Below are positions 12,864 to 48,870 of a DNA stretch of 64,000 bases, in pieces. Every line of letters starts with the position of its first letter. The stretch's first letter is position 1. The stretch is from Galbitalea soli (GTDB taxonomy: Bacteria; Actinomycetota; Actinomycetes; Actinomycetales; Microbacteriaceae), in NCBI RefSeq assembly GCF_010686725.1, contig NZ_JAAGWZ010000001.1, forward strand, positions 1,054,001 to 1,118,000, given 5' to 3'. The notes beneath the pieces were generated by a model that worked only from the letters and a program-made list of their open reading frames with translations, was not told the DNA's origin and ran no database searches. A program made the translations under genes and the position numbers.

Positions 12864-14500
12864 CCCGAGCGGAACGCGCCTGCTACCGCGTGCTCATGAC
12901 CCTCGGGGGCGCCACCGGGCTCGCGTTCTACGCGTGGTGGCTGCAGCCCGAGCACCTGCCGCACAACGCGAGCGGTCTCGGGCACCTGCTCGACGTCGGG
13001 ATCTTCGCGGTGCTGACCGCGGTGCTGAGCCACCGGGCGTTCATGGAGCTCTACACCTGGGTGGTCATCCGCCGGATCGAGCCGCGGCGCGCCGCACCCC
13101 GGCCCCAGGAGGGGCTTCGGGTGGCGTTCATCACCACCTTCGTGCCGGGCGCGGAAGGGCTCGACCTCCTGGCGCGCACCCTGCCGGGAATGCTCGCGGC
13201 CGATTATCCGCACGACACCTGGCTGCTCGACGAGGGCGGCGACGAGGATGCCCGAGCACTGTGCGAGGCGCTCGGCGTGCGGTACTTCAGCCGCCGCGGC
13301 ATCCGCGCCTACAACCTGGTCGCGGGCCCGTTCACCGCGAAGACGAAGGGCGGCAATCACAACGCCTGGTACGAGGAGGTGGGTCACGAGTACGACGTCG
13401 TCGCGCAGATCGACACGGACTTCGTGCCGCGACGCGACTTCCTCACCGCCACGCTCGGGTACTTCCGCGACCCCCGCATCGGCTGGATCGGGACGCCGCA
13501 GATCTACGGCAACACCGACTCGTTCATCGCGCGCGGGGCCGCGCAGCAGCAGTTCGGCTTCTACGGTCCGGTGATGCGGGGGCTGAGCGGACGGCGGACG
13601 GCCAACATGATCGGCGCGAATCACGTGGTGCGGGTCGCCGCGCTAGCCGACATCCGCTTCTACGCGGGCCACCTCACCGAAGACCTGCTCACGGGGATGC
13701 GGCTGCACGCCGCGGGCTGGCGCAGCGTCTACGTGCCGGAGCCGCTCGCCATCGGGGAGGGACCGGAGACGTGGCAGGCCTACTTCAGCCAGCAGATGCG
13801 CTGGGCATCCGGCTGCATGGATGTGCTGCGCTGGCACTCGCCCCGGCTCGTGCGCCGAATGCCCCGCGCGCAGGCGCTGCTCTCGCTCGCGCTGCAGCAG
13901 GGCTACTTCAGCGGCCTCGCGAGCGCACTCGGCATCGCCCTGCTCGCCGCCTACTTCTTCGGCGGAATCGAGATCTCGCGGGTGCCGCTGCTCGGGCTCA
14001 TCGAGTGGGGCGGACCCTTCCTCGCGATGCGCGTGCTGATCCTGCTCTGGATGCAGCGCTTCACGGTGCGGCCGACGCTCGAACGCGGACTCCACCTCGC
14101 CGGCCACGTGCTCTCACTCGCGGCCTGGCCCATCTACCTCCTCGCCTTCGTGGGCGTGGCCCGCAGCCGACCGCTCGCCTTCCGGGTGACGCCGAAGGGC
14201 GGCGTCTCCCAGCGCTCGGTCGGGCTGCTGCGGCTGTTCCGGCCCCACCTCGTGCTCGCGCTCGTGAGTCTCGCGTGCGTCGTCGCGGGCCTGCTGCGGC
14301 CCGAGCCCTCAGCGGTGCTCATGGCGTGGGCGATCATCAACACGGTGACCCTCGGCTCCTTCGTCGTGATGGCCACCCTCGCGACGATTCGACGGCGCGG
14401 GCGCGGGCGCGCACGCGGGCACGAGCATCCTCCCGCCCTGTCGCGGCCCGACTCCGGCGCGACCGCTCCCGGAATGCCGGTCTCGGCGACGGCGCCCTGA
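12860..14500 (+). CDS. second cellulose-synthase-like glycosyltransferase (GT2)
   Basis: A 546-residue membrane glycosyltransferase. Two N-terminal helices (about 11-29 and 40-58), then DEGGD at 124-128, DTD at 185-187, TED at 273-275 and QQMRW at 311-315, followed by about five helices. The set of catalytic residues is complete, so it too is probably processive. It is only distantly similar to the GT2 at 9108. The long open frame upstream is a shadow of the acyltransferase; the real ATG overlaps that gene's stop. The C-terminal 40 residues are basic and disordered. Confidence 0.82.
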   Translation: MTRAERACYRVLMTLGGATGLAFYAWWLQPEHLPHNASGLGHLLDVGIFAVLTAVLSHRAFMELYTWVVIRRIEPRRAAPRPQEGLRVAFITTFVPGAEGLDLLARTLPGMLAADYPHDTWLLDEGGDEDARALCEALGVRYFSRRGIRAYNLVAGPFTAKTKGGNHNAWYEEVGHEYDVVAQIDTDFVPRRDFLTATLGYFRDPRIGWIGTPQIYGNTDSFIARGAAQQQFGFYGPVMRGLSGRRTANMIGANHVVRVAALADIRFYAGHLTEDLLTGMRLHAAGWRSVYVPEPLAIGEGPETWQAYFSQQMRWASGCMDVLRWHSPRLVRRMPRAQALLSLALQQGYFSGLASALGIALLAAYFFGGIEISRVPLLGLIEWGGPFLAMRVLILLWMQRFTVRPTLERGLHLAGHVLSLAAWPIYLLAFVGVARSRPLAFRVTPKGGVSQRSVGLLRLFRPHLVLALVSLACVVAGLLRPEPSAVLMAWAIINTVTLGSFVVMATLATIRRRGRGRARGHEHPPALSRPDSGATAPGMPVSATAP

Positions 14501-15573
14501 TGCCGTCGGCGGGCCGAGGGGCATGGATCGCGCGCGCCGGGCGCCGGCTGCGGCGCGCTCCTCGGGTCGGAGCGATCCCGGCAGCGGGTCTCGTCGTCGT
14601 CGCCATCGCCGCCGCCGCTCTCCTCGGCGGAGCGCTCATCCGGGGCGTCCCGCCGCCCACGGGTCCCGCGGCTCCGCATCCCGCGCTCGCGCGCGCGCCG
14701 CTGGGAGCGACCGCGCGATGGGGCGCGACCTTCGACCCCGATGCTCCCCTCGCCACTGCGATCACCGAGGCCGAGTCCGCCGTTCATCGGCACATCGACA
14801 TCGTGGGTCGATTCATCTCCTGGACCTGGCCGACTCCCGTGCAGAAGTCGGTGATCGATCGACTGCGGGCGATCAGCTCACCGACCCGCACGGTGATGAT
14901 CACCTGGCAGCCGGGCGAACACGCGGGTGTCGGCCCGGGAACGACGCCCGGCACGGGGCTCCTTCAGCGCATCGCGGCCGGGCGCGAGGACGCGGCCGCC
15001 ATCGGGTTCCTGCGCCAGCTCGCCGACTTCCGCGGGCCGGTGGTGATCCGCTTCGCACACGAGATGAACGGGTCGTGGTACCCGTGGTCGGGCGACCCGG
15101 CGCACTACGTGGCCGCCTGGTCGCGCATCCACGGCCTCGTCGCCCGCTTCGCGCCGGCCGCACGCATGGCCTGGAGCGTCAACAACGTGGATCAGCCCGC
15201 GGCGAACCGGTTCGAGCGCTACTGGCCGGGGGCCGCTCAGGTCGACATGATCGGGCTGGACGGCTACAACTGTCTCGCCGGCTGGCAGAGCCCCGCCCAG
15301 GTGTTCGCGCGCGCCTACGCGCGCCTCCTGGCTCTCGCCCCGACCACTCCCCTGTGGATCACGGAGACCGCGAGTTGCGAGTCCTCGCCCGCGGTGCCGG
15401 GATCGGCGGATTCCTCCAAGGCGGCGTGGATCACGGGCCTGCTCGGCAGTCGCGAGCTGCCGCGAGTGACCGCGGTGGTGTGGTTCGACCGCGACAAGGA
15501 GTACGACTGGCGGATCTCCTCGACCCCCGCTGCCGCCGCCGCCCTCCGACGGGCGCTCGCCGTTCAGCCGTAG
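14500..15573 (+). CDS. GH26-like glycoside hydrolase, membrane-anchored
   Basis: A 357-residue protein with an N-terminal signal anchor (about residues 25-48) after a basic stretch. The family GH26 acid/base region is IRFAHEMNGSWYPW at 183-196, with E188, and the likely nucleophile is E289 in WITETAS. GH26 enzymes cleave beta-mannans or mixed-linkage beta-glucans. Its start overlaps the preceding stop (TGATG), so it belongs to the exopolysaccharide operon and may trim or release the polymer. Its 3' end overlaps the converging GH16 gene by ten bases. Confidence 0.8.
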   Translation: MPSAGRGAWIARAGRRLRRAPRVGAIPAAGLVVVAIAAAALLGGALIRGVPPPTGPAAPHPALARAPLGATARWGATFDPDAPLATAITEAESAVHRHIDIVGRFISWTWPTPVQKSVIDRLRAISSPTRTVMITWQPGEHAGVGPGTTPGTGLLQRIAAGREDAAAIGFLRQLADFRGPVVIRFAHEMNGSWYPWSGDPAHYVAAWSRIHGLVARFAPAARMAWSVNNVDQPAANRFERYWPGAAQVDMIGLDGYNCLAGWQSPAQVFARAYARLLALAPTTPLWITETASCESSPAVPGSADSSKAAWITGLLGSRELPRVTAVVWFDRDKEYDWRISSTPAAAAALRRALAVQP

Positions 15574-35295: not shown

Positions 35296-35367
35296 GCTCC
35301 GCCTCCAGGACTCGAACCTGGACCTAACAGCTCCAAAGGCTGTCGTGCTGCCATTACACCAAGGCGG
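35296..35367 (-). tRNA. tRNA-Gln (anticodon TTG)
   Basis: The minus strand folds as a 72-base tRNA. Acceptor arms TCCGCCT and AGGCGGA pair perfectly, the anticodon stem is ACAGC/GCTGT around the loop CTTTGGA (anticodon TTG), and the T arm contains GGTTCGAGTCC. The CCA end is not encoded. In actinobacteria tRNA-Gln is often just upstream of glmU; here the sugar transporter genes separate them. Confidence 0.95.
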
Positions 35368-35474
35368 ATCGCGACCTTCGTCGCGCCGACAAGTCTGCCA
35401 GATGCGTCCGTCGCGGGGTCGCGAGTGGCCGGGGCCGGCCGCGCGACCCGCGGTGAGGTCGGGCCCGGCAGCAC

Positions 35475-35602
35475 CCGCGGTTCACTTTGCAGGGCCCGAA
35501 GCAGAGAAGAGACCGCACCCCACGGTGCGGTGCCCATTTTCCGGGCCTCGGCGCGAGCTCCGGCGGGGTGACGGGCGACCGGCCCTGCGTTGTGAACCGC
35601 GG
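35475..35602. repeat. 22-base inverted repeats bounding a 128-bp element
   Basis: Arms 35475-35496 and 35581-35602 are inverted copies: 11 of 11 outer and 8 of 8 inner positions pair, with three central bases not matched. Inside is a second hairpin (ACCGCACC at 35512-35519 with GGTGCGGT at 35524-35531) followed on the plus strand by a run of T. It looks like a small mobile or regulatory element. Confidence 0.5.
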
Positions 35603-35658
35603 GGTGCACGAGCTGCGCGGGTGGCAGCCGGCGTCGGGATGGGCCGGATAATGGGTTC

Positions 35659-36150
35659 ATGCCCGCTCACGACGAAGTCGACCGCGTCGTCGACGCGTGG
35701 ACGCGCGAGCGTCCCGACCTCGACTTCGCCCCGCTGCAGGTGCTGAGCCGGGTGGGTCGCCTCGCCCGTCACCTGGAGCGTGCGCGCCGTGCGGCCTTCG
35801 CCGCCTCCGACCTGGAGCTCTGGGAGTTCGACGTGCTGTCCGCGCTTCGCCGCGCGGGCGCCCCCTACCAGTTGAGCCCCAAGGCGCTGCTTCAGCAGAC
35901 GCTGGTGAGCAGCGGCACGATGACCAACCGCATCGATCGGCTGGTGGAACGCGAGCTCGTGGAGCGCCGCACCGACCCCAACGACGGGCGGGGCATCCTC
36001 GTCGTCATGACACCGCGCGGCCGGGAACGGGTCGATGCCGCCATCAGCGAGCTGCTGCGTGGCGAGTCCGAGCTTCTGGATGCCCTTTCCGGCCCCGACC
36101 GCGAGCGGCTCAGCGCGCTCCTGCGCAAGCTCAGCCTCGACTTCGACTGA
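35659..36150 (+). CDS. MarR-family transcriptional regulator
   Basis: A 163-residue MarR regulator. The winged helix spans about residues 70-125, with the wing pattern SSGTMTNRIDRLVERELVER and the conserved D-x-R as DPNDGRG. Start ATG at 35659 follows GATAAT by six bases, giving a leaderless mRNA. It converges on the ketosynthase operon and, as the only regulator adjoining it, may control it, though no operator is evident. Confidence 0.85.
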   Translation: MPAHDEVDRVVDAWTRERPDLDFAPLQVLSRVGRLARHLERARRAAFAASDLELWEFDVLSALRRAGAPYQLSPKALLQQTLVSSGTMTNRIDRLVERELVERRTDPNDGRGILVVMTPRGRERVDAAISELLRGESELLDALSGPDRERLSALLRKLSLDFD

Positions 36151-36221: not shown

Positions 36222-37157
36222 TCACCAGTCGCGCGCGCCGTCCAGTGTGGTCGGCGTCGGGCGGTAGTCGAGCAGCTCGCGGGCGCGCGACAGCTCGAGG
36301 GTGCGCTCGAGCCCGAGCTGACTCACCGCGTAGCGCGTGACCGGCGGTCGCAGCCGGGTCAGCCGCGACAGTCGCTCCGCCGCCCCCGCCGCGAGGTAGG
36401 CGGTGCGGTACGGCACGCTCTCGATGCGCGCGCCGGTGATTCCGCGCCGCACGAGCAGCTCGCGCAGCACCGGCCCCAGCACGACGGCCGAGTCGTCTCC
36501 GACGTTGTAGACCCCCGTGGGCGAGGCGGGGTCGAGGGCGCGGCGCACCGCGTGCACCAGGTTGTCGATGTGCGTGAGCGTGTGCAGCACCTCGCCGCCC
36601 GAGGGCAGCCGCAGCACCCCGCCCCGCGCGGCCCTCAGCAGCCGGGGCAGCAGCGTCGTGTCGCCGGGGCCGTAGACGGCGTGCGGGCGCAGGATGACCG
36701 CCCGCACCCCTTTCGCCCCCATCCGCCCCATCAGCTCCCGCTCCGCCGCCGCCTTGGACGCCGCGTAGCTCCCCAGGTAGCGCGCGACCGGCGCCTCCTC
36801 TTCCCGCGCGCGCACGGTCGGCACGGCCGGGTCGTAGACGCTCGCGGTGGAGAGGTGCACGAGCCGGGCATCCCCCAGCCGGTCGAGCACGGCGCGGGTG
36901 CCGCCCAAGTTGGTGGCGAGGGCGCGGGATCGCGGCGCCCAGTCGTCGGCGAGCGCCGCCGCGTGCACGACCGCGTCGACGCCGTCGAAGAGGCCCTCGG
37001 GGGGCTTCTCGCTGAGCGCCCAGCGTCGGTAGACGGCGTGCGCGAACTGCACGTCGTCGCGCCGCCCGGTGCCGGTGACGTCGTGACCGTGCTCCGCGAG
37101 CGCGCGGGTGACGGCCCCTCCGACGAAGCCGCTGGCCCCGGTGACGACGATCCGCAC
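36222..37157 (-). CDS. NAD(P)-dependent reductase, 3-beta-HSD/OleD-like
   Basis: A 311-residue extended short-chain dehydrogenase. Nucleotide motif GASGFVG at 7-13; catalytic S105, Y131 and K135 (YAASK). The blocks VVHAAALADDW, RPHAVYGPGD and LPRLLRAARGG resemble OleD, which reduces the 2-alkyl-3-keto acid made by OleA to a beta-hydroxy acid. It is the last gene of the five-gene operon, six bases after the AMP ligase gene. Role by analogy; a nucleotide-sugar epimerase is a less likely alternative. Confidence 0.75.
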   Translation of the reverse strand: MRIVVTGASGFVGGAVTRALAEHGHDVTGTGRRDDVQFAHAVYRRWALSEKPPEGLFDGVDAVVHAAALADDWAPRSRALATNLGGTRAVLDRLGDARLVHLSTASVYDPAVPTVRAREEEAPVARYLGSYAASKAAAERELMGRMGAKGVRAVILRPHAVYGPGDTTLLPRLLRAARGGVLRLPSGGEVLHTLTHIDNLVHAVRRALDPASPTGVYNVGDDSAVVLGPVLRELLVRRGITGARIESVPYRTAYLAAGAAERLSRLTRLRPPVTRYAVSQLGLERTLELSRARELLDYRPTPTTLDGARDW

Positions 37158-37163
37158 CAGCGG

Positions 37164-38738
37164 CTACCCGAGCCGGGCGCGCACCAGTTCGGCGAGCGCG
37201 GCACGGTCGAGTTTGCGGGCGCGCCCGCTGCGGGGAAGCTCGGGCTCGACGAGGATGCGGTCGGGCAGCACGGCGGCGTCGATGAGCCCGGGGAGAGCGC
37301 GCCGCACCGCGGCGATGAGCGGATGATCGCCCGCCCCCCGCACGTACTGCTCCTCCGGCACGAGCACGAGCACGATCGCGTCGTCGCCGATCGCGTTCGG
37401 CACGCCCACGAGCGCGGCCTCGCGCACCCCGGGCAGGCCCGCGATGATCGGCTCGTAGAGGCCCGGGTAGACGTTCGTCTCGCCGCGGATGAACATGTCT
37501 TTGCTCCGCCCCGCGAGCACCAGGCGGTCGCCCTCGATGCGCGCGAGGTCGCCCGTGGCGACCTCGCGCTGGGGTTCCTTGCCGAGGTAGCCGAGCATGA
37601 GACCGGGGCCGGCGACGACCAGCTCGCCGTCGACGATCCGGGCGTGGACCGTGCTCGCGAGCTGCCCGACATAGTCGCCCTCGCCCGTGTAGGCGAGCTT
37701 CTCGTCGCCGTCCGCGAGCGCGACCGGCAGCATCTCCGTCATCCCGTAGATGGCGGTGATGCGGGCCCCGGGCAGCTGCGCGCGCACCCGCTCCAGGAGG
37801 GGGCGGAGGACGGGGGCGCCGCCGATGATGACGGTCGAGATGGTCGGGGTGCGCTCGGGGTGGGATTCGAGGAGGGTGAGCAGGGCATCCATCGCCGCGG
37901 GGACGGCGAAGAGCACGTCCGCCCCCGGGAGGAGGTCGAGGTAGTTGGTCGGCTGCGCGCCCGGCGCGGTGCCGACCGCGGGCAGCACCCAGTGCGCTCC
38001 CGCGATGAGGGCGGGCACCCCGACCATGAGCTGGTCGGTGAGCACGCGCTGGCCGGGCAGGATTCCGGTGTGGCGCACGAAGTCGCCGAGGCCGGTGCCG
38101 AGCGAGAGCCGTGAGTGCACGACGGCTTTGGGGTCGTCGGTGGTTCCGCTCGTGAAGATGACGAGCGCCTCGGCGGTGGGGTCGCCCGGCTCGAACTCGG
38201 GCGGGATGGTTCCCGGCGCGGAGAGCGTGTGCACGTGCACCGACCCGCGCGGCACCCCCGGCAGCCAGGGTCCCGAGTAGAGGTGGCGGGCGTCGGGCAC
38301 GACGCGGGCGTAGGGCGGCAGCACGAGTCCGCGCCCGCGCGCGAAGCGACGCAGCGGCGCGGAGCTCGCGAGATACAGCACCGACTCGGCCGCGACCCAG
38401 CGTGCCGCGGCGAGCTGGGCCCGCGCCCGGAAGGTGGCCTCCCCCGCCCCGGGGTCGGCGAAGACGACGGAGCCGCCCGCGGCGATGATGCCCAGCACGA
38501 GTACGGTCGCGTCGGCGCCCGGCCGGATGGAGAACAGCACGCGGTCGCCGGGCTGCATGCCGAGCAGTCGCAGAGCGGCAGCGGTGCGCAGGATGCTCCC
38601 CCGCAGCTCGCGGTAGCTGAGGCTGTGCCGCCCGAAGGTGATCGCGGGCGCGGGCCCGTAGGTCTCGCCCGCCTGCAGCACCGCCGCGAGCAGGTCGGTG
38701 CCGGGCTCGGCCGGAGGCGCGTCGGTCGGGTCGCTCAT
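37164..38738 (-). CDS. AMP-dependent acid ligase, acyl-CoA synthetase/OleC-like
   Basis: A 524-residue member of the ANL adenylating superfamily. The P-loop is TSGTTDDPK at 196-204, YGMTE at 331-335, GDLAR at 396-400 and the hinge GRSKDMFIRG at 410-419; the C-terminal lysine region is RARKLDR. The segment after the P-loop (HTGILPGQRVLTDQLMVG) is OleC-like, but the C-terminal hinge is nearer to ordinary acyl-CoA synthetases, so it could either close a beta-lactone or activate an acid. It overlaps the P450 stop (ATGA). Confidence 0.75.
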   Translation of the reverse strand: MSDPTDAPPAEPGTDLLAAVLQAGETYGPAPAITFGRHSLSYRELRGSILRTAAALRLLGMQPGDRVLFSIRPGADATVLVLGIIAAGGSVVFADPGAGEATFRARAQLAAARWVAAESVLYLASSAPLRRFARGRGLVLPPYARVVPDARHLYSGPWLPGVPRGSVHVHTLSAPGTIPPEFEPGDPTAEALVIFTSGTTDDPKAVVHSRLSLGTGLGDFVRHTGILPGQRVLTDQLMVGVPALIAGAHWVLPAVGTAPGAQPTNYLDLLPGADVLFAVPAAMDALLTLLESHPERTPTISTVIIGGAPVLRPLLERVRAQLPGARITAIYGMTEMLPVALADGDEKLAYTGEGDYVGQLASTVHARIVDGELVVAGPGLMLGYLGKEPQREVATGDLARIEGDRLVLAGRSKDMFIRGETNVYPGLYEPIIAGLPGVREAALVGVPNAIGDDAIVLVLVPEEQYVRGAGDHPLIAAVRRALPGLIDAAVLPDRILVEPELPRSGRARKLDRAALAELVRARLG

Positions 38739-39874
38739 CGTGTGATCACCAGTGAACGGTAGCCCGGAAGCAGAGTGCGCCGGGCCGCCCCGCGCGCAGC
38801 GACGCGCAATCCGGCCGGGGCGTCGAGCAGCGCGCCGAGCACGAGCCGCACCTGGGCCATCGCGAGGGGGGCGCCGATGCAGAAGTGCGGCCCGGCCCCG
38901 AACCACAGCTGTTTGAGCCCCGCCGCCGGGTTGGCGATCGGGTCGAAGGGCCCGAGGGCGCGGTTCGCCGCGAAGGTCGCGAGGATGACCCGCTCCCCGC
39001 GCCGCACCCCGACCCCGCCTATCCTGCCGTCCCTCAGCACCGAGCGCAGCATGACGGGCGTGGGCGTGGTCACGCGCATGCCCTCCGCGATCGCCGCCTC
39101 GACGCGCGTGCGGTCGTCGCGCAGCCGATCGAGCCAGCCGGTGTCGAGGAGGAGGGCGACCAGCCGCGGGATGAACGCGACGAGCGTCTCGGTGCCGGTG
39201 AGCACGAAGGCACCAGCGGCGCCGAGCGCGTCCCGCTCGCCGAGCCCGAGCTCGCGCATCCGCCCGGGCACGGTGCTGGCGTCGCCCGCCCAAGCGGCCG
39301 AGGCGGCGGTGTCGAGCTCGGCGATCACCCGGCGCGCGGCGAGGATCTGCCGGGCGGTGAGGCGCGGGCGGGCGAGGTTGACGTAGGCGCTGATGGCGGA
39401 GATGCGCCGGAAGAGTTCGTCACCCACGACGTCGTCGCCGAGCCCCACGAGCTGCGCGATCATGATGCTCGCGTAGTGCCGCACCTCGGTCACCAGATCG
39501 ACGGGCTCGCCGTCGCGCAATCGCCCGGTGAGGGCGGCGAGCGCGTCGGCGAGGGTGCGTGCGGCGAGGTCATCCACCCAGGCCGGGGTGAACAGGGGGG
39601 CGAGCTGGCGACGCAGGGCGGCGTGGTCGGCGCCATCCATGTTGACGAGCACGGTGGGGCCGAGCACGGGCGTCCACAGCTCGCTCGACGCGCCGGGGCC
39701 GTTCTTGGTGAAACCGCGACCGTCGAGGAGGACGCTTCGCAGGAGGGCCGCATCGGTGACGACGATGCCGAGGCCGGGGATGCGGCGCACGGGGCTCCGC
39801 ACGGCGGTCAGCAGCGGGTAGGCGATCGGATGCGCGGCGCGATACAGCCGCTCCTCCCACGCCGCCGCGCTCAT
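38735..39874 (-). CDS. cytochrome P450
   Basis: A 379-residue soluble bacterial P450. The heme ligand is C332 in FGAGPHFCIG, the K-helix ExxR is EGMR at 264-267, and the I-helix acid/threonine pair is in TGTET at 226-230. It should hydroxylate or otherwise oxidise the lipid product of this operon (inference); no ferredoxin is adjacent. The start MSAAAW overlaps the GT2 stop (ATGA); the longer open frame has no support. It is somewhat shorter than the usual 400 residues at the N-terminus. Confidence 0.88.
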   Translation of the reverse strand: MSAAAWEERLYRAAHPIAYPLLTAVRSPVRRIPGLGIVVTDAALLRSVLLDGRGFTKNGPGASSELWTPVLGPTVLVNMDGADHAALRRQLAPLFTPAWVDDLAARTLADALAALTGRLRDGEPVDLVTEVRHYASIMIAQLVGLGDDVVGDELFRRISAISAYVNLARPRLTARQILAARRVIAELDTAASAAWAGDASTVPGRMRELGLGERDALGAAGAFVLTGTETLVAFIPRLVALLLDTGWLDRLRDDRTRVEAAIAEGMRVTTPTPVMLRSVLRDGRIGGVGVRRGERVILATFAANRALGPFDPIANPAAGLKQLWFGAGPHFCIGAPLAMAQVRLVLGALLDAPAGLRVAARGAARRTLLPGYRSLVITR

Positions 39875-40632
39875 CGGATATCCACCCGCTCCGGCCGGTA
39901 CTCGTGATCCTTGTACCAGAGGAGGGTGTTCTTCAGGCCCCACGCCCGGACGCGCCGGCTCGACCCGTACACCACGATGTCGCGGCGTCGCGCGTAGTCG
40001 CCGGTGATGCGCCGCACGGCGTTCACGAGGGCGCGGTCCTCGTGCAGTTCCTCGATGGCGGTGCGCGGGAAGCCGCCCGCGGCGAGATAGGTCTCGGCGC
40101 GGATCCCCAGATTGCAGCCCGCCGCCATCATGTAGGGCCCGCGGTAGGCGGGGTCGCGATTGGCGCGTCGCACCCGGCCGTACGCTTCCGCCAGGAACAC
40201 CGCCCCGCGCAGCAGCGCGCGCGTGGGGAGCGGGAGGCCCTCGTCGCGGCGGGGCACGAGTTCGCCCCCGACCAGCTCGAGGCCGAGCCCGTCGTCGCGG
40301 TCGAGGGCGTGACGGATGCGCGCCGTCCAGTCGGCGCGCGGCAGGCAGTCGGCGTCGGTGCGGGCGAGCAGTTCGGCCCCCGCGTCGATCGCGGCGCGCA
40401 TGCCCGTGTCGGCGGCGGCTCCCGTGCCCTTCACGGGCTCGTGCACGATCCGCCAGCGCGGCCTCCCCCGGAGGAAGTGCTCCAGAATCGCCACGGACTC
40501 GTCGGTGCTGCCGTTGTCGACGAAGACGACGTCGATGTCGGCGTCGGTCTGCGCGGCGAGCGCGGCCAGTGTCGTGTGGATGCCCGCCGCCTCGTTGTAC
40601 ACGGGCACGACCACCGCGAGCCGCCCGCTCAC
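39871..40632 (-). CDS. glycosyltransferase family 2
   Basis: A 253-residue soluble GT-A glycosyltransferase: VVPVYNE at about 8-14, VDNGSTD at 38-44 and the metal-binding DAD at 93-95. There is no membrane segment, and the enzyme is probably non-processive, adding a single sugar. The GTG start overlaps the ketosynthase stop (GTGA). Within a lipid operon it may glycosylate the product (inference). The open frame upstream of 40632 is a shadow. Confidence 0.8.
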   Translation of the reverse strand: MSGRLAVVVPVYNEAAGIHTTLAALAAQTDADIDVVFVDNGSTDESVAILEHFLRGRPRWRIVHEPVKGTGAAADTGMRAAIDAGAELLARTDADCLPRADWTARIRHALDRDDGLGLELVGGELVPRRDEGLPLPTRALLRGAVFLAEAYGRVRRANRDPAYRGPYMMAAGCNLGIRAETYLAAGGFPRTAIEELHEDRALVNAVRRITGDYARRRDIVVYGSSRRVRAWGLKNTLLWYKDHEYRPERVDIR

Positions 40633-41636
40633 ACCCGCACCAGCATGAGGCCGAGACTGATGCCGCCGGCCAGCCCGATCAGCAGCACGAGACTGCCCGG
40701 CGCGATCATGCCGCGCTCGCGGGCGCGCAGCAGTTGCAGCGGCAGGCTCACCGAGGCGAGGTTGCCGTGCTCGGCGATCGTGATCACGGTGCGGTCGGCG
40801 GCCACGCCGAGCCGATCGAAGATCGGCGGGAGGTAGGGCAGGGCGACCTGGTGGATGGCCACGAGATCGACGTCCGCCCACTCGAGCCCCTCCCTCGCGA
40901 GGAGGTCGAGCACCGGCTCCGGCCCCAACTCGAGGAAGGCCTGCTGCAGGGCCGCGCCGTCCATGTCGAAGAACACCTTGTCGGGGTCCCGGGGGTTCAT
41001 GGAACCGCCGGACGGCAGGGTGCCGATCGACCAGTGGCGCGAGACGGCGAGGAAGGTGGAGGCCAGGATGCCCGTGCGCCGGTCATCCGACGCCTCGACG
41101 ATGACGGCCGCTCCCCCGTCGCTCATGGTGTAGCCGGGGAAGGAGCGGGCGAACTGCTCGGTGTCGGCGAGCCGCCACCGCACGGCATGGGAGGGCTGCT
41201 CGCCGCTCGCCACGAGCACCCGGTGATACTGCCCGGAGGCGATGAGCGCGTCGGCGACCTGAATCGCGTTGATCACGCTGTTGCAGGCGTTCTTGATGTC
41301 CATGACGGGGCAGTCGAGACCCAGCTTGGCGGCGACGATGTGGCTCGTGGCGGGCTCGATGAGGTCTTGGCTCGCGCTCGCGAAGAGCAGCAGATCGATC
41401 TCGCCCGGGGCGTCGGCGAGGGCATCCCGGCTCGCGGCGACCGCCAGATCGGAGGTCTGCCAGCCGTCGGGGCGCACGTGCACCGACTCGACCCCGGTGA
41501 GGCGATGGATGAGCCCGGTCGCCAGGTTGAGCCCGGGATTCGCCTCGCGCAGCCGCGCCTCCGTCTCCCGGGTCGAGCGCGTCGACTCGGGCAGAAACAC
41601 CCCGAGACCGGCGATGCGGGAGGAGGGGACGGCCAC
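40629..41636 (-). CDS. OleA/FabH-like 3-oxoacyl synthase III
   Basis: A 335-residue thiolase-fold condensing enzyme. The catalytic set is C118 (NACNS), H262 (AIHQV) and N292 (EHGN). In addition E94 lies in LIEPATSHIVAAKLGL, the position of the catalytic glutamate of OleA, which performs head-to-head Claisen condensation of two fatty acyl-CoAs; FabH lacks it. The GTG start follows TAGGGT by six bases, so this operon has its own leaderless promoter. It is the first of five overlapped genes. Confidence 0.78.
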   Translation of the reverse strand: MAVPSSRIAGLGVFLPESTRSTRETEARLREANPGLNLATGLIHRLTGVESVHVRPDGWQTSDLAVAASRDALADAPGEIDLLLFASASQDLIEPATSHIVAAKLGLDCPVMDIKNACNSVINAIQVADALIASGQYHRVLVASGEQPSHAVRWRLADTEQFARSFPGYTMSDGGAAVIVEASDDRRTGILASTFLAVSRHWSIGTLPSGGSMNPRDPDKVFFDMDGAALQQAFLELGPEPVLDLLAREGLEWADVDLVAIHQVALPYLPPIFDRLGVAADRTVITIAEHGNLASVSLPLQLLRARERGMIAPGSLVLLIGLAGGISLGLMLVRV

Positions 41637-41642
41637 GCAGTC

Positions 41643-41648
41643 ACCCTA
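41643..41648 (-). promoter_or_regulatory. leaderless -10 of the ketosynthase operon, inside the kinase stop codon
   Basis: TAGGGT, six bases before the GTG at 41636. Its first three bases are the TAG stop of the FGGY kinase gene (41646-41648). No convincing -35 seen. Confidence 0.5.
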
Positions 41649-43238
41649 GCGGTGCGGGCGGTGCCGTGGGGGTGGGGCCGAAGCGGGTGCGGAGGGTCTC
41701 CCGCTCACGGGATCGGCAGGGCCCGGCTCGGCGCCCCGCGCCAATCCTCCCTCGCTCTGAAGTCGCGCGAGTTCGTGCATGACGTCGACGGTTTTCGGGT
41801 AGAGCGACGTGAACAGCTCGTACAGAGCATCGTAGCTCGCGCGATTCTCCGGGCGCGGTCGCACGATCGACTCCTCGGTCGCCCAGTCGGTGGCGGGGGG
41901 AACGCTGCCCGTTCCGATGGCGGCGAGCAATGCATCGCCATAGCTCGCGCCGATCGTGACTCGGGGAATTATCTGTTCCACGCCCGCGATGTCGGACACG
42001 ATCTGGGTCCAGAGTCCGCCCTGCGTTCCGCCGCCCACGGCCACGACGCGCGCGGCCGGTCCGACGAACTGCGCCACCTGGTCGAGCACCTGTCTGATCG
42101 CGTACCCGATGCCCTCGTAAGCCGCACGAAACAGGTGGCCCCGATTGTGGTCGAGGGTCAGACCGATGATCGTGCCGCGTGCGTTCGGGTCGTGGATGGG
42201 GGATCGTTCGCCGGCGAAGTACGGCAGCATCAGCAGGCCGTCACTGCCAGGGGTGGTCGCTTCGGCTTCCTCGATCAGCGTCGGGAAGTCAGCACCCGAG
42301 GTCAGATCGCGGACCCAGGCGGTGAGGCTCCCCGACGTCGACATCCCGGCGGCGAGAGTGTGCGACTCCCTCTCGACCCCGGAGGTGGTCCAGAGTCCCG
42401 GGTGCGACACCGGCGCGGGCAGCACCTGCACCATGAACATCGTCGACCCGTACATCACCATCAGATCGCCCGGGCGACGAACGCCCGCCGAGAACGCTTC
42501 CGCCCACGCGTCGACTGTGCCCGCGATGACCGGCAAACCCACCGGCAAGGTCGTCTCTCGTGCGGCACGGACAGTGACCGTGCCCACGATGTCGGCAGGC
42601 CACACGAGCCTCGGCAGCCGTGCATCCGGCAGTATTTCGTCGCACCACTCCCGCAACCAGTCCTGCGAGCGGATGTCGTAGAGCGGGTCGAATTGGCTCG
42701 CGGTGTGATGATCCAGATACCACTCCCCCGTGAGTCGGAATCCGATCCAGCTGTGACAGCTGAACCACATCGACGTCTGGCGCCAGATCTCGGGGCGCCG
42801 ATTTCTCAACCAGAGCAGTTTCGCGCCCGCGGCCTGGGAGCCGAGCTCTGTGCCGCAGCGTTCCAGGATCGACCCGCGACCGAGCCGCTCCTCAAGCTCC
42901 GCGACTTCGTCGGTTGCTCGCGAGTCGATCCCATACAGAATCGCGGGCGCGAGGGGCGCCCCGGCGGAATCCGTGGGAAGCACGCACGGGCCGATCCCCG
43001 ACACGGCGACTCCCGCGAGTCGACCCTCCGCTCGTGGCACCACCTCGCGGCACAGCGCAACGACCGGATCCCACCAATCGGTGCCCGCATCCATTTCAGC
43101 GAATCCCGGGCGTGGCCTCCGGATGGAACTGGGTCGCGACCCCTGCGCGATGATCCGACCCGCCGATGTCGCCACGACGGCCTTCACGGATCCGGAGCCG
43201 ATATCGATTCCGAGGAAGAGGGGGGCGCGAGGAGTCAT
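41646..43238 (-). CDS. FGGY-family carbohydrate kinase
   Basis: A 530-residue FGGY sugar kinase (xylulokinase-like). Phosphate 1 motif GIDIGSGSVKAVV near residues 9-21; the C-terminal half carries AVGGGTQGGLW and the ATP-site segment IGASYGDALLAA. The sugar is not identifiable. After the usual family end near residue 497 there is a 33-residue Pro/Arg-rich tail that looks like read-through into former non-coding DNA. The ATG overlaps the permease stop (ATGA). It is the last gene of the second sugar operon. Confidence 0.85.
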   Translation of the reverse strand: MTPRAPLFLGIDIGSGSVKAVVATSAGRIIAQGSRPSSIRRPRPGFAEMDAGTDWWDPVVALCREVVPRAEGRLAGVAVSGIGPCVLPTDSAGAPLAPAILYGIDSRATDEVAELEERLGRGSILERCGTELGSQAAGAKLLWLRNRRPEIWRQTSMWFSCHSWIGFRLTGEWYLDHHTASQFDPLYDIRSQDWLREWCDEILPDARLPRLVWPADIVGTVTVRAARETTLPVGLPVIAGTVDAWAEAFSAGVRRPGDLMVMYGSTMFMVQVLPAPVSHPGLWTTSGVERESHTLAAGMSTSGSLTAWVRDLTSGADFPTLIEEAEATTPGSDGLLMLPYFAGERSPIHDPNARGTIIGLTLDHNRGHLFRAAYEGIGYAIRQVLDQVAQFVGPAARVVAVGGGTQGGLWTQIVSDIAGVEQIIPRVTIGASYGDALLAAIGTGSVPPATDWATEESIVRPRPENRASYDALYELFTSLYPKTVDVMHELARLQSEGGLARGAEPGPADPVSGRPSAPASAPPPRHRPHR

Positions 43239-44293
43239 GCGGGTGCGGGCTCCACGGCTCGCCGAAAACGCCGTCGTCGGAACAGCGGCACGACTTGGCC
43301 GCCGTAGACGTTCACGGCAAGCATCGCGATCAGGAACGCGCCCTGGGCGATGCTGACCACGTCGGAGCTGACCCCGACTGCGGTCAGGCCGGTCGACAGT
43401 GTCTGCAGTGCGATGGCGGCGACGATCACGCCCGTGATGGTGATGTGGCCGCCGTCCGGATTGACGCCCGCCAAGACTGCGACGACGATGCCGAGAAGGA
43501 TGTACGAACTCCCGTAATTGGTGTCTGCGCTGCTCGCCCGCGAGGAGATGATCAACCCGGCGACTCCCGCGAGGCCGCCAGTCAGCGCGTAGGTGCTGAT
43601 CGTGACGCGCCTCGCACTGATTCCCGAGTACTCAGCCGCGACCGCGTTTGCACCCAACAACCGGATGCGAACGCCGACCGGGGTTGCGGTCACTACGAAC
43701 GCCACGAGGCCGGCCAGGAGCAGGGTCAGTAGGAAGATGAGCGGAACCCCCGCGAAAGTGATGTTCGCGAAGTCGGTGAACGCTGTCGGCAGGGCCGACA
43801 CCGCCGTTCCCCCCGAGAGCACCAGCCCGATACCGCCATACAACTGGGACGTGCCGAGTGTCGCGAGAATCGGCGGGACACGCAGTCCCGCGATGAGAGT
43901 GCCGTTGATGACGCCGCAGACGACCGCGACGGCGACTCCGAGCAGAATCGCCAGCGCGAGCCCGCCCCCGGTGGCACCGATTGGCGTCACCATGACGAGA
44001 CCGGATGCGATGCCCGCAAGGTTCGCGATCGCGACGACCGACAGGTCGATTCCTCCGGCGAGCATCGCCAGCGAGATGCCGAGGCTCAGCAAGGCGACCT
44101 CGGGCGTCGCCTGGGCGAGGAATTCGAAGTTGCCGACCGTGAGGAACGAAGTCGGTGCGAGCGCGGAGAACGTGATCACGATGGCGATGCTCACGACCAG
44201 CAGACGCACGAGGCTCCCGCGACTTCCCATTGCGCTCAGGATTCGCGCCGTGATGTGGCGCCCCATCCTGGCGCCTTGATTCTGGTCGTTCAT
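43235..44293 (-). CDS. sugar ABC transporter permease 1 (RbsC-like)
   Basis: A 352-residue permease of the ribose family with eight to ten helices. Signatures are LSLGISLAMLAGGIDLSV and the cytoplasmic ATPase contact near RIRLLGANAVAAEYSGI. It pairs with the second permease to form a heterodimer, as in autoinducer-2 and rhamnose systems. Ends overlap by four bases with both the kinase and the second permease. Base composition is lower in GC than the surrounding genes. Confidence 0.86.
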   Translation of the reverse strand: MNDQNQGARMGRHITARILSAMGSRGSLVRLLVVSIAIVITFSALAPTSFLTVGNFEFLAQATPEVALLSLGISLAMLAGGIDLSVVAIANLAGIASGLVMVTPIGATGGGLALAILLGVAVAVVCGVINGTLIAGLRVPPILATLGTSQLYGGIGLVLSGGTAVSALPTAFTDFANITFAGVPLIFLLTLLLAGLVAFVVTATPVGVRIRLLGANAVAAEYSGISARRVTISTYALTGGLAGVAGLIISSRASSADTNYGSSYILLGIVVAVLAGVNPDGGHITITGVIVAAIALQTLSTGLTAVGVSSDVVSIAQGAFLIAMLAVNVYGGQVVPLFRRRRFRRAVEPAPA

Positions 44294-45348
44294 ACTGTTT
44301 CTCCGATGGGTACGGACGACGCCGGCGGGGCGAGGATCGCCCGAATCGGCCTGACCCGGTTGGCGATGGTTTGCAGGCTGACACCGAGGATGAGGAGGAG
44401 CCCGATCACCGCTTGTTGCCAGATCGCAGGAATTCCGAGGGGAATGAGGGCCGAGTTGATGATCTGGATCACGATGACGCCGAGGAGCGTTCCCCGGACT
44501 CGACCGCGGCCGCCCGTGATCAGCGCCCCACCGAGCACCACTGCGGCAATGACATTCAACTCTCCGCCGATGAAGGTGGTGGGGTCTGCGCGTCCCGACT
44601 GCGCCACTTGCACGATCCCGGCCAGGCCGGCGATTCCGCCGGCGATAGCGAACACGAGCACTCGGGTTGCTCGGATCGGGATACCGACTCGTCGCGCGGC
44701 CTCCTCGTCACCGCCGACGGCGAACACCCACCGACCCGCGATCGTGCGCCGGAGGAAGAGCGCCACGAGGACGGCGAGGACCACTCCGATGATCACGAGC
44801 GCCGACAGCCTTGTGGTCCCGCCGTTGGCAAGCGGGATCCGCACCAGGCTGACCGAGTTCATGCCCACCAGTCCATGGGGGATGTCCGAAATAACGGTGC
44901 CTCCGATGAACGCGAACAGCGCTCCGAGGAATATCGCCGAGGTAGCCAGCGTGGCGATCAAGGTCGAGAGTCGGGCACCGAGAACGACGACCGCGTTGAC
45001 CAATCCCAGGAGTACACCCACCCCGACCGCCACCGCGATGGAGAGAAGGGCACCGGGGGCTCCGTCGGCCTGCGGGAAGAGCCTGCAGGACAGGTACGCG
45101 GCGAAGATTCCCACGGTCAGAAACGAGACGTCGATCCCCCCGGCGATCAGCACGAGTGTGACCCCGATTCCAAAAATGAACGGGACGAGGGCGCTCGTAA
45201 GGATATTAAAGAGGGTGTCGACCCCGAGGAAGCCCGGATTTCGTACCGACACCGCGCCGACGATCACGAGCGCGATGACGAGCAGGAGGACTTCCTGGTT
45301 GCCGATCGCCCGCCTGATTCGCGGGTGCGTGGACAGCAATGACTTCAC
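44290..45348 (-). CDS. sugar ABC transporter permease 2 (RbsC-like)
   Basis: A 352-residue paralogue of the downstream permease, with IGVTLVLIAGGIDVSF, RWVFAVGGDEEAARRVGI and AVVLGGALITGGRGR as family marks. Two permeases with one ATPase of two domains suggest an Lsr- or Rha-type importer. It overlaps the ATPase gene (ATGA) and the next permease gene. Confidence 0.86.
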   Translation of the reverse strand: MKSLLSTHPRIRRAIGNQEVLLLVIALVIVGAVSVRNPGFLGVDTLFNILTSALVPFIFGIGVTLVLIAGGIDVSFLTVGIFAAYLSCRLFPQADGAPGALLSIAVAVGVGVLLGLVNAVVVLGARLSTLIATLATSAIFLGALFAFIGGTVISDIPHGLVGMNSVSLVRIPLANGGTTRLSALVIIGVVLAVLVALFLRRTIAGRWVFAVGGDEEAARRVGIPIRATRVLVFAIAGGIAGLAGIVQVAQSGRADPTTFIGGELNVIAAVVLGGALITGGRGRVRGTLLGVIVIQIINSALIPLGIPAIWQQAVIGLLLILGVSLQTIANRVRPIRAILAPPASSVPIGETV

Positions 45349-46865
45349 GCTGAGATCGCCTCCAGAATGGTGGCCTCGCTCAGATTGGCGGAGTCGAGTT
45401 CATCGACCAGTCGGCCGCCGCGCATCACGAGAACACGGTGACAGGTCGCCACGAGCTCCGGAAGGTCATCCGAGATGATGAGGATCCCCAGGCCGCGGAG
45501 GCTTTCGGCGTTGAGGATGCTCAGGATGTCGAACTTCGAGCCGACATCGACCCCCACCGTTGGACCGTTGAGTACCAGCACAGCGGGCTCGCGCAGGAGC
45601 CACTTGCCGATGAGTACTCGCTGCGCGTTACCCCCCGACAGACTTCGCACCGGCGCCGCCAGAGATCGCGTCTTGATCCGGAGTGTGGCGCTCATCGTGC
45701 GGCTCGCCTCGCGAAGTGCCCGCGCGCGGATTCGACCGGCTCTCGAGAACTTCGACAGGATGGTGACGCTCAGGTTGTCGCCGATCGGCTGATCGAGAAA
45801 CAATCCCTGCGTCAGCCGATCCTCCGGAACGTAGGCGATGCCCGCCGACACCGCGCCTTCGACGGAGCGAATGTCGCATTCTTCTCCGAGAACGGAGATG
45901 TGCCCGGTATCGGCGGGATGAACGCCGGCGATCGCCTCGGCGACTTCGGTGCGCCCTGAACCGAGGAGCCCGGACAGGCCGACGACCTCGCCCTGCCCCA
46001 CCGTGAAGGAGATCCCCTCGAACAGCTGGGACCGGCCCAGCCCCGTCACGCGAAGGGCGGCAGGCTTTCCCGCCCAGACAGCGCTCGACCGCGGGAACGA
46101 CGTACTCTTCCTGCCCGTCATGCCCTGACTCAGCGATTCGTGGGTGTACTGACTGGGCACCCCGGTTTCCACAATTCGTCCGTTGCGCAGCACGGTGACC
46201 CGATCCGCTACATCGAACACCTCCTGGAGCTTGTGGCTGATGAAGGCGATGGCGACTCCCTGCTCCCGCAGCCTCCCCACGGCGTCGAAAAGGGAATCCA
46301 CCTCACGCCACGTCAGCGCCGTCGTGGGTTCGTCCATCGCCAGAAAGGTCGAGTTGTGTGCGAGTGCCCGGGCAATCGCACACAACTGCCGATCCGCGAC
46401 CGTCAGGTCTCCCACCGGTGTGGAGAGGTCGAGGCGGATGCCCGCTCGACCGATCGCCTCCTCGGCGATCTTCATCGCCCTCTTCCGGCTCGCGACGCGT
46501 TTCCCTTCAAGTGTCAGCAATGGCAGAGCGATGTTCTCCGCGGCGTCGAGATTCGGAAGCAACGAAAAGTCCTGATAGATGACTTCCACGCCGAGCCGAA
46601 TCGCCTGCTGCGGGCGGAGTGACGGATACGCATGCCCGGAGATGCGGATGGACCCCGCGGTCGGCACCTCAGCACCGCTGATGATCTTGATCAGCGTCGA
46701 CTTCCCGCTTCCGTTCTCCCCGGCGAGGCAGTGCACCTCGCCGGGAAGGAAGCGGACGGTCACGTCGGTGAGGGCGTTCACACCGCCGAAGGTTTTGCTG
46801 ATGGACTCAGCTTCGACGACGGGTCGGACCGATCCGTGCTCCGGGTCGCTTGTCATTGTGCTCAT
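45345..46865 (-). CDS. sugar ABC transporter ATPase, two nucleotide-binding domains
   Basis: A 506-residue RbsA/XylG-type ATPase. Domain 1: Walker A GENGSGKST, Walker B FLAMDEPTTAL; its signature (VGDLTVADRQL) is non-canonical. Domain 2: Walker A is replaced by LLGSGRTE as usual for this family, the signature LSGGNAQR is intact, but Walker B reads VLVLNGPTVGVDV, with Asn-Gly in place of Asp-Glu. The second site therefore should not hydrolyse ATP. ATG at 46865; a second ATG three codons on is possible. Confidence 0.87.
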   Translation of the reverse strand: MSTMTSDPEHGSVRPVVEAESISKTFGGVNALTDVTVRFLPGEVHCLAGENGSGKSTLIKIISGAEVPTAGSIRISGHAYPSLRPQQAIRLGVEVIYQDFSLLPNLDAAENIALPLLTLEGKRVASRKRAMKIAEEAIGRAGIRLDLSTPVGDLTVADRQLCAIARALAHNSTFLAMDEPTTALTWREVDSLFDAVGRLREQGVAIAFISHKLQEVFDVADRVTVLRNGRIVETGVPSQYTHESLSQGMTGRKSTSFPRSSAVWAGKPAALRVTGLGRSQLFEGISFTVGQGEVVGLSGLLGSGRTEVAEAIAGVHPADTGHISVLGEECDIRSVEGAVSAGIAYVPEDRLTQGLFLDQPIGDNLSVTILSKFSRAGRIRARALREASRTMSATLRIKTRSLAAPVRSLSGGNAQRVLIGKWLLREPAVLVLNGPTVGVDVGSKFDILSILNAESLRGLGILIISDDLPELVATCHRVLVMRGGRLVDELDSANLSEATILEAISA

Positions 46866-46898
46866 GGCTCTCTCGCGGAATCGTGGACGGCGCAGCTC

Positions 46899-47921
46899 TT
46901 AGAACGTGTAATTGTCGATATTCGCCTTCGTGATGGAGAGGATTGCGTCGCCGTAGAACTCCAGCGGGTTCGTGGCCGACTGATGCATGGATGTGTATCC
47001 CGGAACCTTCAGATCTACACCGGCGGAAAGCTTTTTCCCGCTGGCCAGAATCTTGCCCGCCTGGAGCATCGCCTCGCCCGCGAGTTTTGGATCCCAGAGG
47101 AAGATTCCGTCGGCGGAGCCGTCTGCAATGTACTGCTTCGTCTCGGACGGGACTCCCGTGCCGAAAACGCAGATCTTGTCCTGAAGGCCGGCCTCCTGAA
47201 TCGCGCGGGCGATGCCGGGAACATCCTGCGACGAATCGCCGAAGAAGCCCTTGATCCCGGGATTGGACTGCAGGATCTGCTTGGTCTTCGTGTACGACGT
47301 CGCCGCGTTGTCGTTCGACTCGAAGGGCTGAGCAATCCGGTGCATGCCCGGATACTTCTTCTCCTGCATCGCGAGGCCGGCATTCGCCCAGTCCATGTGA
47401 GTCTCCGAAGTGAGCGATCCGACGAACTGCGCGTAGTCGCCGGAGCCGTTCATGCACTTCGCAAGCGAGCTCATGATCTGCTCGCCATAGCTGGCATTGT
47501 CGAACGCCTCGATGTCGGCATCCGCGTTCGTGATTGTGGGCGCCTCGTGCGTGACGACAGTGATTCCCTTGCTCCGTGCCTGCGCCAGCGCCGTCTCCAC
47601 CGATGCGGGGTCGATGGGGATGACGGCGAGCACTGTCGGGTTCTGCGTTATCGCTGAGCGAAGCAGATTTGCTTCCAACTCGGGACTCGCCGTGGTCGGG
47701 CCGATCTGGCTGGCGTTGATTCCCGTCTTCTTCGCGAAATCGGCAACTCCGGCCTTCATGCGATCGAACCAGGCGATTCCCGAGATCTTCACGACCTGGA
47801 TGTACTTTCCGGTGCCGGCGGCGGGCTTGCCGCTTGATCCGGCGCTGACCGTAGAGCACCCGGCGAGCGCGAGGGTTGCCATGAGGGCCCCGACGACCGC
47901 GATTTTTCTGGACATGTGCAT
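46899..47921 (-). CDS. sugar-binding lipoprotein of the RbsB/LsrB type
   Basis: A 340-residue lipoprotein: short signal and lipobox LAGC near residue 22, then a periplasmic-binding fold (Peripla_BP_4). The blocks IGPTTASPELEANLLRSAI, VLAVIPIDPASVETAL and GVPSETKQYIADGSADGIFL resemble autoinducer-2/rhamnose binding proteins. I start at ATG 47921, with GGGAG four bases upstream; the ATG two codons later is nearly as good. It is the first gene of the operon, divergent from the DeoR gene. Confidence 0.85.
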   Translation of the reverse strand: MHMSRKIAVVGALMATLALAGCSTVSAGSSGKPAAGTGKYIQVVKISGIAWFDRMKAGVADFAKKTGINASQIGPTTASPELEANLLRSAITQNPTVLAVIPIDPASVETALAQARSKGITVVTHEAPTITNADADIEAFDNASYGEQIMSSLAKCMNGSGDYAQFVGSLTSETHMDWANAGLAMQEKKYPGMHRIAQPFESNDNAATSYTKTKQILQSNPGIKGFFGDSSQDVPGIARAIQEAGLQDKICVFGTGVPSETKQYIADGSADGIFLWDPKLAGEAMLQAGKILASGKKLSAGVDLKVPGYTSMHQSATNPLEFYGDAILSITKANIDNYTF

Positions 47922-47956
47922 GCTGCTCCCACTCTTCATTGAATGTTCGTCCTCGA

Positions 47957-47978
47957 CTCTGCGCGATATCGAGCAGAG
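47957..47978. promoter_or_regulatory. putative DeoR operator 1
   Basis: CTCTGC and GCAGAG arms frame an inner CGATATCG; only one base pair of the 22-base palindrome is mismatched. Located between the divergent binding-protein and DeoR genes. Confidence 0.55.
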
Positions 47979-47981
47979 GCT

Positions 47982-47997
47982 TGCACGAAATCGTGCA
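47982..47997. promoter_or_regulatory. putative DeoR operator 2
   Basis: TGCACGA and TCGTGCA, perfect 7-bp arms separated by two bases, three bases after the first palindrome. Sequence differs from operator 1, so two different proteins are possible. Confidence 0.5.
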
Positions 47998-48102
47998 GCG
48001 CGAGTATTGCAGGGTCTGCCTTCTGAGCGCAAGTGCCAGCCAAACCTCCATTGCGGTCGGGTCGCGCTACAGTTGGGAAAAACCGCAAGAGAGTTGGGCA
48101 TC

Positions 48103-48870
48103 ATGGATTTATCCCCGCGACAGCAGGGAATACTGGCCGAACTCCGTCGGGGCGACTACGTCGAGGTGAAGGCGCTTGCACGCCGCTTCGGTGTCGACGG
48201 ATCGACAATTCGACGAGACCTCCAGTCGCTCCGTCGGCTGCACGAAATCGAGCGCTTCCACGGTGGGGTCAGAATTCGACAGCCCAACGCCACCGGACAC
48301 GCCTCCCGCACCACCCATCTCGCGATCGCTTCAGGCGCTCGCCGACTCCTCGGTCACGGCCAGTCGATCGCTCTCGGCAGTGGCCCCATCACTGAGCTCC
48401 TCGTGCCCCTCCTGTTCGACCTCGAGGGGGTGCACGTCGTGACGACCAACGCTCGGGTCGCGGAGCACCTGGACTCGGGCGGGGTGGCGGTGCGACTCAC
48501 CGGCGGCGATCTGGTGCACGGCACCGGGGAAATGACCGGTGACTCCGTCCTGCACGCGTTCGAGAAAACCCAAGTGGATTGGGCCATGGTCGAGGTGGAT
48601 GGGGTCCACCCGTTCGCAGGATTCACGGTCGATTCACCGTGGCGTGTTGCCAACCTGCGCGCGGTCATGGGCGCGGGTGAACGCCGATGCGTTCTCGCCG
48701 GGAGTTCGGCCTTCGATCGGCGTCGCATCGGCTTCGTCGCCGAGATCAGCGTCGCAGACCTGCTCATCACCGACGAGCTTCTCGACGACGGGAGCCTGCC
48801 CGCCTATGAGGGGCGCGTGGTCAGAACCCCCATTGATACGCGAGAGTTTGTGCCAGAAGGGGGCGCCTGA
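48103..48870 (+). CDS. DeoR-family sugar-operon repressor
   Basis: A 255-residue DeoR regulator. The N-terminal HTH (RQQGILAELRRGDYVEVKAL to GSTIRRDLQSL) is followed by the DeoRC sugar-phosphate-binding domain with LALGSGPITELL-type loop (IALGSGPITELL) and VRLTGGDLVHGTGEMTG. It is divergent from the importer and most likely represses it until a phosphorylated sugar appears. The ATG at 48103 has GAGAG upstream and TACAGT (48068-48073) as a -10; the long open frame before it is a shadow. Confidence 0.87.
   Translation: MDLSPRQQGILAELRRGDYVEVKALARRFGVDGSTIRRDLQSLRRLHEIERFHGGVRIRQPNATGHASRTTHLAIASGARRLLGHGQSIALGSGPITELLVPLLFDLEGVHVVTTNARVAEHLDSGGVAVRLTGGDLVHGTGEMTGDSVLHAFEKTQVDWAMVEVDGVHPFAGFTVDSPWRVANLRAVMGAGERRCVLAGSSAFDRRRIGFVAEISVADLLITDELLDDGSLPAYEGRVVRTPIDTREFVPEGGA

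Follow-up and report, generated by a model that had tools for sequence, protein, structure and literature searches.

The window, a stretch of 64,000 nucleotides of the 3.04 Mb genome of Galbitalea soli, contains five ORFs on the minus strand, from position 41636 to 36222, encoding a ketosynthase, a GT2 glycosyltransferase, a cytochrome P450, an AMP-forming ligase and an SDR reductase. In the order in which they are read, these are:

40629-41636, minus strand: predicted OleA-type ketosynthase of a subfamily here called NACN (335 aa; Pfam ACP_syn_III and ACP_syn_III_C; C118-H262-N292 and E94)
39871-40632, minus strand: GT2 glycosyltransferase (253 aa; Pfam Glycos_transf_2)
38735-39874, minus strand: cytochrome P450 (379 aa; Pfam p450)
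37164-38738, minus strand: two-domain AMP-forming ligase, outside the OleC clade (524 aa; Pfam AMP-binding)
36222-37157, minus strand: predicted OleD-like extended SDR reductase (311 aa; Pfam Epimerase)

The genes overlap successively by GTGA, ATGA and ATGA, and a gap of 6 bases separates the ligase gene from the SDR gene. The ORFs, their junctions and the Pfam domains all agree with the end-to-end operon that had been proposed at 36222-41636. Nine bases (41637-41645) separate the start of the ketosynthase gene from the stop of a xylulokinase-type gene, which is also on the minus strand, and readthrough into the operon from this gene and the sugar-import genes upstream is possible. In the region concerned (41646-48104, minus strand), the xylulokinase-type gene is preceded by genes for proteins of sugar-import type, namely two permeases, an ABC ATPase and a periplasmic binding protein. 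Its G+C content is 62–67%, against 72–75% in the operon, and no relative of the xylulokinase-type gene was detected in loci L025 to L081. At the opposite end, positions 35296-36150 next to the operon contain a tRNA-Gln and a MarR gene that is widely conserved. Of 18 loci scanned, 4 (L025, L032, L045, and L050) had the tRNA-Gln, with the MarR gene present at each of them, and this flank looks like a shared chromosomal site. The MarR protein (35659-36150) is unlikely to be a dedicated regulator of the operon because it occurs far more widely than the ketosynthase: at E≤1e-30 it had a match in 29 of 40 relatives, counting its own genome, and in four of five other genomes of the genus, whereas the ketosynthase was found at the same threshold in none of four other genomes of the genus (86–97% complete).

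All four ketosynthase residues listed in the original prediction were confirmed: C118, H262 and N292 coincide in the alignment with catalytic residues of OleA and FabH, and E94 with the glutamate of OleA. The pair E94-P95 is the equivalent of Glu117 and the following proline of Xanthomonas campestris OleA, and the role of this glutamate is given in PMC7064751. The position is occupied by glutamate in all 75 OleA-type rows and in none of the four FabH rows of an 80-row set, which also included the ketosynthase of L081 (28% identical), assigned to no group. A tree was built from a thinned set of 66 ketosynthases with an outgroup of KSIII only and no CerJ row. On one side of a branch supported by 100/99 stood 45 OleA-type sequences, consisting of 13 A-type (window included), 8 B-type, 11 Bacteroidota, 2 ST, 2 OLE2 and 9 classical OleA, apart from 16 FabH and 5 other KSIII sequences; the glutamate was found in 45 of the former and in 0 of the 21 latter. 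The ketosynthase of L079 was left out of this tree as too broken, that of L188 was removed as a copy of L068, and FabH_own_L001 was left out of the final set.

Structural comparison made use of an AlphaFold monomer model of the ketosynthase (pLDDT 89.1). VIA-align placed OleA at the top (Z 41.0, 320 residues, rmsd 2.1), by a small margin over PqsD (Z 39.0) and over the top-scoring chain that is a FabH both in name and in kind (Z 38.7). The chain 3fk5 (Z 39.7), deposited as FabH, was counted as an OleA in view of its near identity with 3row. The profile search of PDB chains gave FabH as best match (210 bits, vs. 169 bits for OleA), and FabH occupied the top ranks of Foldseek with the same model. 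The match to the OleA model NF006720 reached 155.4 bits, under its curated cut-off of 285, vs. 453.5 bits for the classical OleA of L119, and the PDB match to CerJ was of 24.7 bits. A ketosynthase of FabH type was rejected on the tree and the glutamate, despite raw scores for FabH that were equal or higher, with CerJ being judged by its PDB match. The phylogeny and the glutamate, together with VIA-align on the predicted model, support an OleA-type and not a FabH-type enzyme, as had been anticipated.

The residue following the active-site cysteine is leucine in all 9 classical OleA and asparagine in all 66 other OleA-type ketosynthases. The OleA search pattern published in PMC7158056 is EPxx[AS]x(14,18)DxxNACL. 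It matched all 9 classical OleA and none of the 66 others, and thus it misses these ketosynthases because NACN stands where classical OleA has NACL. In the window ketosynthase the sole departure from it is the final residue, N where the pattern has L. When N replaced L in the pattern, 57 of the 66 matched, and the remaining 9 deviated at [AS] or in the spacing. L126, a copy of L060, was retained in the 80-row set and in these motif and pattern counts and was excluded from locus counts. For some phyla, Bacteroidetes included, the survey that used the NACL pattern reported that no ole cluster had been found; as the NACN subfamily escapes its pattern, related clusters in Bacteroidetes were possibly missed.

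At L124 and L125, which belong to 8 Mb genomes of the same order, a NACN ketosynthase adjoins an OleBC fusion and OleD. In each fusion an alpha/beta-hydrolase half is joined to an OleC half. The fusions of L124 and L125 score, respectively, 175 and 153 bits (PRK06187), 340 and 327 bits (PRK09274), and 261 and 257 bits (OleC model), and in the trees their ligase half and the reductase cluster with OleC and OleD of classical clusters. Since the NACN ketosynthase adjoins an OleB-OleC fusion and OleD at these two loci, the subfamily is tied to the ole pathway, and these neighborhoods suggest that it can feed the canonical route. Both loci have the appearance of an olefin-type cluster that the NACL pattern would miss.

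Concerning the SDR reductase, its best NCBIfam model was OleD (132.9 bits), under the curated cut-off of 580, which the OleD of L119 (302.6 bits) does not reach either. In the tree it was placed on the OleD side against nine SDRs of its own genome (SH-aLRT 94), yet outside the OleD clade proper. Residues Y131-xxx-K135 and S106 were invariant in the 15 aligned sequences. The best model score supports the resemblance to OleD that had been claimed, and the protein may be described as an OleD-like SDR by its sequence.

The two remaining accessory enzymes also conserve their motifs. In the GT2 protein, RTD-x-DC and HEDRAL were invariant in 11 of 11 aligned sequences, and in the P450 the haem ligand Cys332, E264-x-x-R267 and T228-E229-T230 were invariant in 17 of 17. 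Retention of the haem Cys, the ExxR and the TET residues led to the rejection of a P450-derived glycosyltransferase activator (TIGR04515, 61.7 bits for a cut-off of 343). In 15 of the 31 loci bearing the glycosyltransferase, the cluster adjoins another conserved P450 encoded on the opposite strand (for example at positions 14240-15412, minus strand, of L044); the copies from five loci in a different family of the order share 53–55% identity with the one of L044. This second P450 was not found in the window genome, in which the sole match at E≤1e-10 was the P450 of the operon itself (37% identity).

For the ligase, an assignment to OleC was not supported. Nine OleC sequences, seven of them seen as OleBC fusions, formed one clade of the ligase tree (support 100), and the ligases of A-type, ST and Bacteroidota clusters, window included, formed another (98). 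The window-type ligases, OleC and two own-genome ANL enzymes stood on one side of a branch with SH-aLRT 96 and six other own-genome ANL enzymes on the opposite one, the order within the former side being unresolved and subject to a long-branch warning. This branch is a weak sign of kinship between the window ligase and OleC. NCBIfam scores of the window ligase were 127 bits with PRK06187 (broad long-chain acyl-CoA ligase), 123 with PRK09274 and 68 with OleC; the corresponding values of the OleBC protein of L119 were 130, 337 and 271, and those of L124 and L125 are given above. The curated OleC cut-off of 900 was reached by neither the window ligase nor these three OleBC proteins. By eye, the A8 region of the window ligase, GRSKDMFIRGETNVYPGLYEP, is CoA-ligase-like, whereas that of OleC reads GRxxHV...TP. 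The A10 lysine, Lys509, was invariant in 18 of 18 aligned sequences, a set from which the ligase of L132 was absent, as its frame is broken at that point and it lacks the A10 stretch. The motif NIYPGLYEP is conserved in the window-type clade. The ligase was modeled as a full-length two-domain ANL protein, and the fold search gave generic ANL matches, with amide bond synthetases among the structural neighbors. For its position outside the OleC clade and its differing A8 motif, the window ligase should not be named OleC, although it may have an OleC-like function, and the beta-lactone step is unproven from these data. The lack of OleB that had been noted was borne out within the reach of the search: at E≤1e-10 no OleB half was detected in the own genome with a single OleBC query, run with no positive control, which matched another ligase through its OleC half only.

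The distribution of the cluster was scattered. The ketosynthase was matched at E≤1e-30 in 19 of 249 genomes of the same family (own included), belonging to 12 of 85 genera, and at E≤1e-40 in 3 of 396 genomes of a phylum sample, own included. In a scan of named genomes yielding 39 loci, by a method that favors close relatives, the closest ketosynthases were those of an uncultured actinobacterium, a Rhodoglobus and Salinibacterium metalliresistens (79–80% identity). Once copies had been removed (L026 of L046 and L029 of L050), there were 31 loci bearing the glycosyltransferase, window included. The order ketosynthase-GT-P450-ligase-SDR proposed as worth searching elsewhere was recovered in 24 of them, and for this reason the grouping is not due to chance; two others had the order ketosynthase-GT-ligase-P450-SDR and five were partial. 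Among the partial loci, L046 and L049 run off the contig end inside the cluster, and no SDR of OleD-like kind was found near the cluster in L037, L041 and L042. Genome G049 holds both a classical OleA cluster (L121) and the ketosynthase-GT-P450-ligase cluster of L042. Therefore, the classical and the five-gene-type clusters are not mutually exclusive.

Two variants were also identified. In 16 loci of Herbiconiux, Agromyces, Psychromicrobium, a strain labeled as Corynebacterium-like and others, the ketosynthase and the P450 were present with neither the GT nor a window-type ligase nearby. A PaaK-like adenylate-forming protein was encoded nearby in 14 of these 16 (L034, L036, L038-L040, L052-L055, L057, L058, L063, L127, and L128), and none was found at L059 or at L056, whose contig begins just upstream; the two PaaK-like proteins scanned were both above the TIGR02304 cut-off. 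In the whole genomes of 14 of the 16, no GT was matched at E≤1e-15 by a query that had no positive control there and that by tblastn finds the 31 GT loci. The window ligase query gave matches of 57–76 bits in 8 of the same 14 genomes, vs. 306–615 bits for 28 A-type ligases (tblastn). The Herbiconiux-type ketosynthases branch inside the five-gene type in the 66-row tree, and because of this nesting the ligase and the GT were probably lost or replaced in these clusters.

The second variant comprises 17 further loci, of which 15 are named Bacteroidota, one an uncultured bacterium and one Gracilibacteria. The ketosynthase-ligase-SDR core was found in 15 of them, and the other two run off the contig end. 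An AurF-like protein is encoded directly upstream of the ketosynthase in 11 of the 17 (L064, L066-L069, L073, and L076-L080; all but L079 named Bacteroidota) and, in one more, further off and on the other strand. Two of the AurF-like proteins were scanned and both exceeded the Pfam AurF cut-off. A broader reading, which we regard as possible but doubtful, is that across Actinomycetota and Bacteroidota the NACN branch would combine a ketosynthase-reductase core with interchangeable adenylate-forming enzymes (OleC, NIYPGLYEP ligase or PaaK-like) and oxygenases (P450 or AurF-type diiron), either making oxidized head-to-head lipids that are neither olefins nor known beta-lactones or using a new lineage of beta-lactone synthetases.

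Taken together, the gene set, its order and conservation, the active-site residues and the family placements lead us to favor, tentatively and with a chance somewhat short of even, a pathway for a modified long-chain lipid whose structure is itself a prediction. Judging from its residues, tree position and fold, the ketosynthase would condense two acyl-CoA molecules head to head in a non-decarboxylating reaction, with the partner subunit's E94 acting as base, to give a 2-alkyl-3-keto acid. The SDR, with its similarity to OleD and its intact catalytic residues, would reduce this to the 2-alkyl-3-hydroxy acid. Condensation and reduction are well supported as inferred steps. The P450, whose residues are intact, would hydroxylate a chain, and the GT2 would put a sugar on the new hydroxyl; both steps are plausible from the sequences. 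The ligase would adenylate the carboxylate and most likely close a beta-lactone, which would persist for want of an OleB. Of all the steps proposed, lactone closure is the least secure, given the position of the ligase outside the OleC clade. The ligase step also varies among clusters, since in the Herbiconiux type a PaaK-like enzyme is found in place of ligase and GT.

Three other explanations were weighed. It is rather unlikely, although deserving consideration, that the product is a glycolipid without a beta-lactone, in which the 2-alkyl-3-hydroxy acid, a mycolate-like skeleton, would have its carboxylate activated by the ligase for transfer to a sugar or other acceptor and would be tailored by the P450 and the GT. 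A full-length two-domain ANL enzyme with the A10 Lys, an ACS-like A8 and a position outside the OleC clade fits such a role, and the amide bond synthetases found beside other ANL enzymes among its structural neighbors are weak evidence for it; however, Pfam identified no acyltransferase among the five genes. We consider unlikely that the ligase merely supplies acyl-CoA to the ketosynthase, with a reduced, hydroxylated and glycosylated acid or ketone-derived lipid as product. PRK06187 being its best NCBIfam model and another adenylate-forming family standing in its place in Herbiconiux-type clusters would agree with this, but the ligase has its own clade with the conserved NIYPGLYEP, and six of the eight other own-genome ANL enzymes tested lie across the SH-aLRT 96 branch. 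Finally, a FabH/CerJ-type cluster for an ordinary fatty acid or a polyketide starter, with no head-to-head chemistry, is very improbable, for although the PDB profile search and Foldseek both rank FabH chains first, the tree, the conserved glutamate, the first place of OleA in VIA-align (by its small margin) and a CerJ match of only 24.7 bits are against it.

If the pathway is the predicted one, scattered Micrococcales genera make glycosylated head-to-head lipids for which no product was reported in the literature found, and the ligases and oxygenases swapped among clusters offer a way to test what each step does by comparing clusters. As regards the original interpretation as a whole, the OleA-type ketosynthase, the OleD-like reductase and, within the reach of a single query, the lack of OleB were supported, whereas an identification of the ligase with OleC was not supported and the claim of novelty was wrong.

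In comparison with the olefin pathway (oleABCD or oleA-oleBC-oleD), the window shares an OleA-type ketosynthase and an OleD-like reductase, and differs in that no OleB was found, the ligase is outside the OleC clade, a P450 and a GT are added, and NACN replaces NACL. Clusters with oleA, oleC and oleD and no oleB are described in PMC7064751 (mBio 2020), which names the producer species. By gene content, the window differs from these nocardiolactone- and lipstatin-type clusters in its P450 and GT2. The text of PMC7064751 also describes in Actinoplanes atraurantiacus a region with OleA, a glycosyltransferase, OleC, a P450 and OleD, without OleB, for which condensation, reduction, hydroxylation, glycosylation and lactone closure to a glycosylated beta-lactone were inferred; the statement that no cluster with this gene set had been described was thus mistaken. 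According to the same text, the OleA of that species, 29% identical to that of X. campestris, hydrolyzed p-nitrophenyl hexanoate, and condensation with such esters was not observed. Apart from PMC7064751, no title or abstract describing such a cluster was found and no product was reported, and the accessible portions of PMC12032627 and PMC7916644 name no such cluster. The A. atraurantiacus region, compared through its gene list and order as given there, has the same five kinds of proteins, no OleB and the same proposed type of product as the window, but its order is OleA-GT-OleC-P450-OleD instead of ketosynthase-GT-P450-ligase-SDR. Relatives of all five proteins in the former order were found in the actinobacterial loci L114 and L115, with P450 matches that are partial and weak (59–67 bits). 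The window operon is, judging by gene list and order, another case of a published but uncharacterized gene set, and its inferred chemistry agrees with that proposed there. What is new here is the distinction between NACN and NACL, the presence of the core in Bacteroidota and the PaaK-like replacement in Herbiconiux-type genomes.
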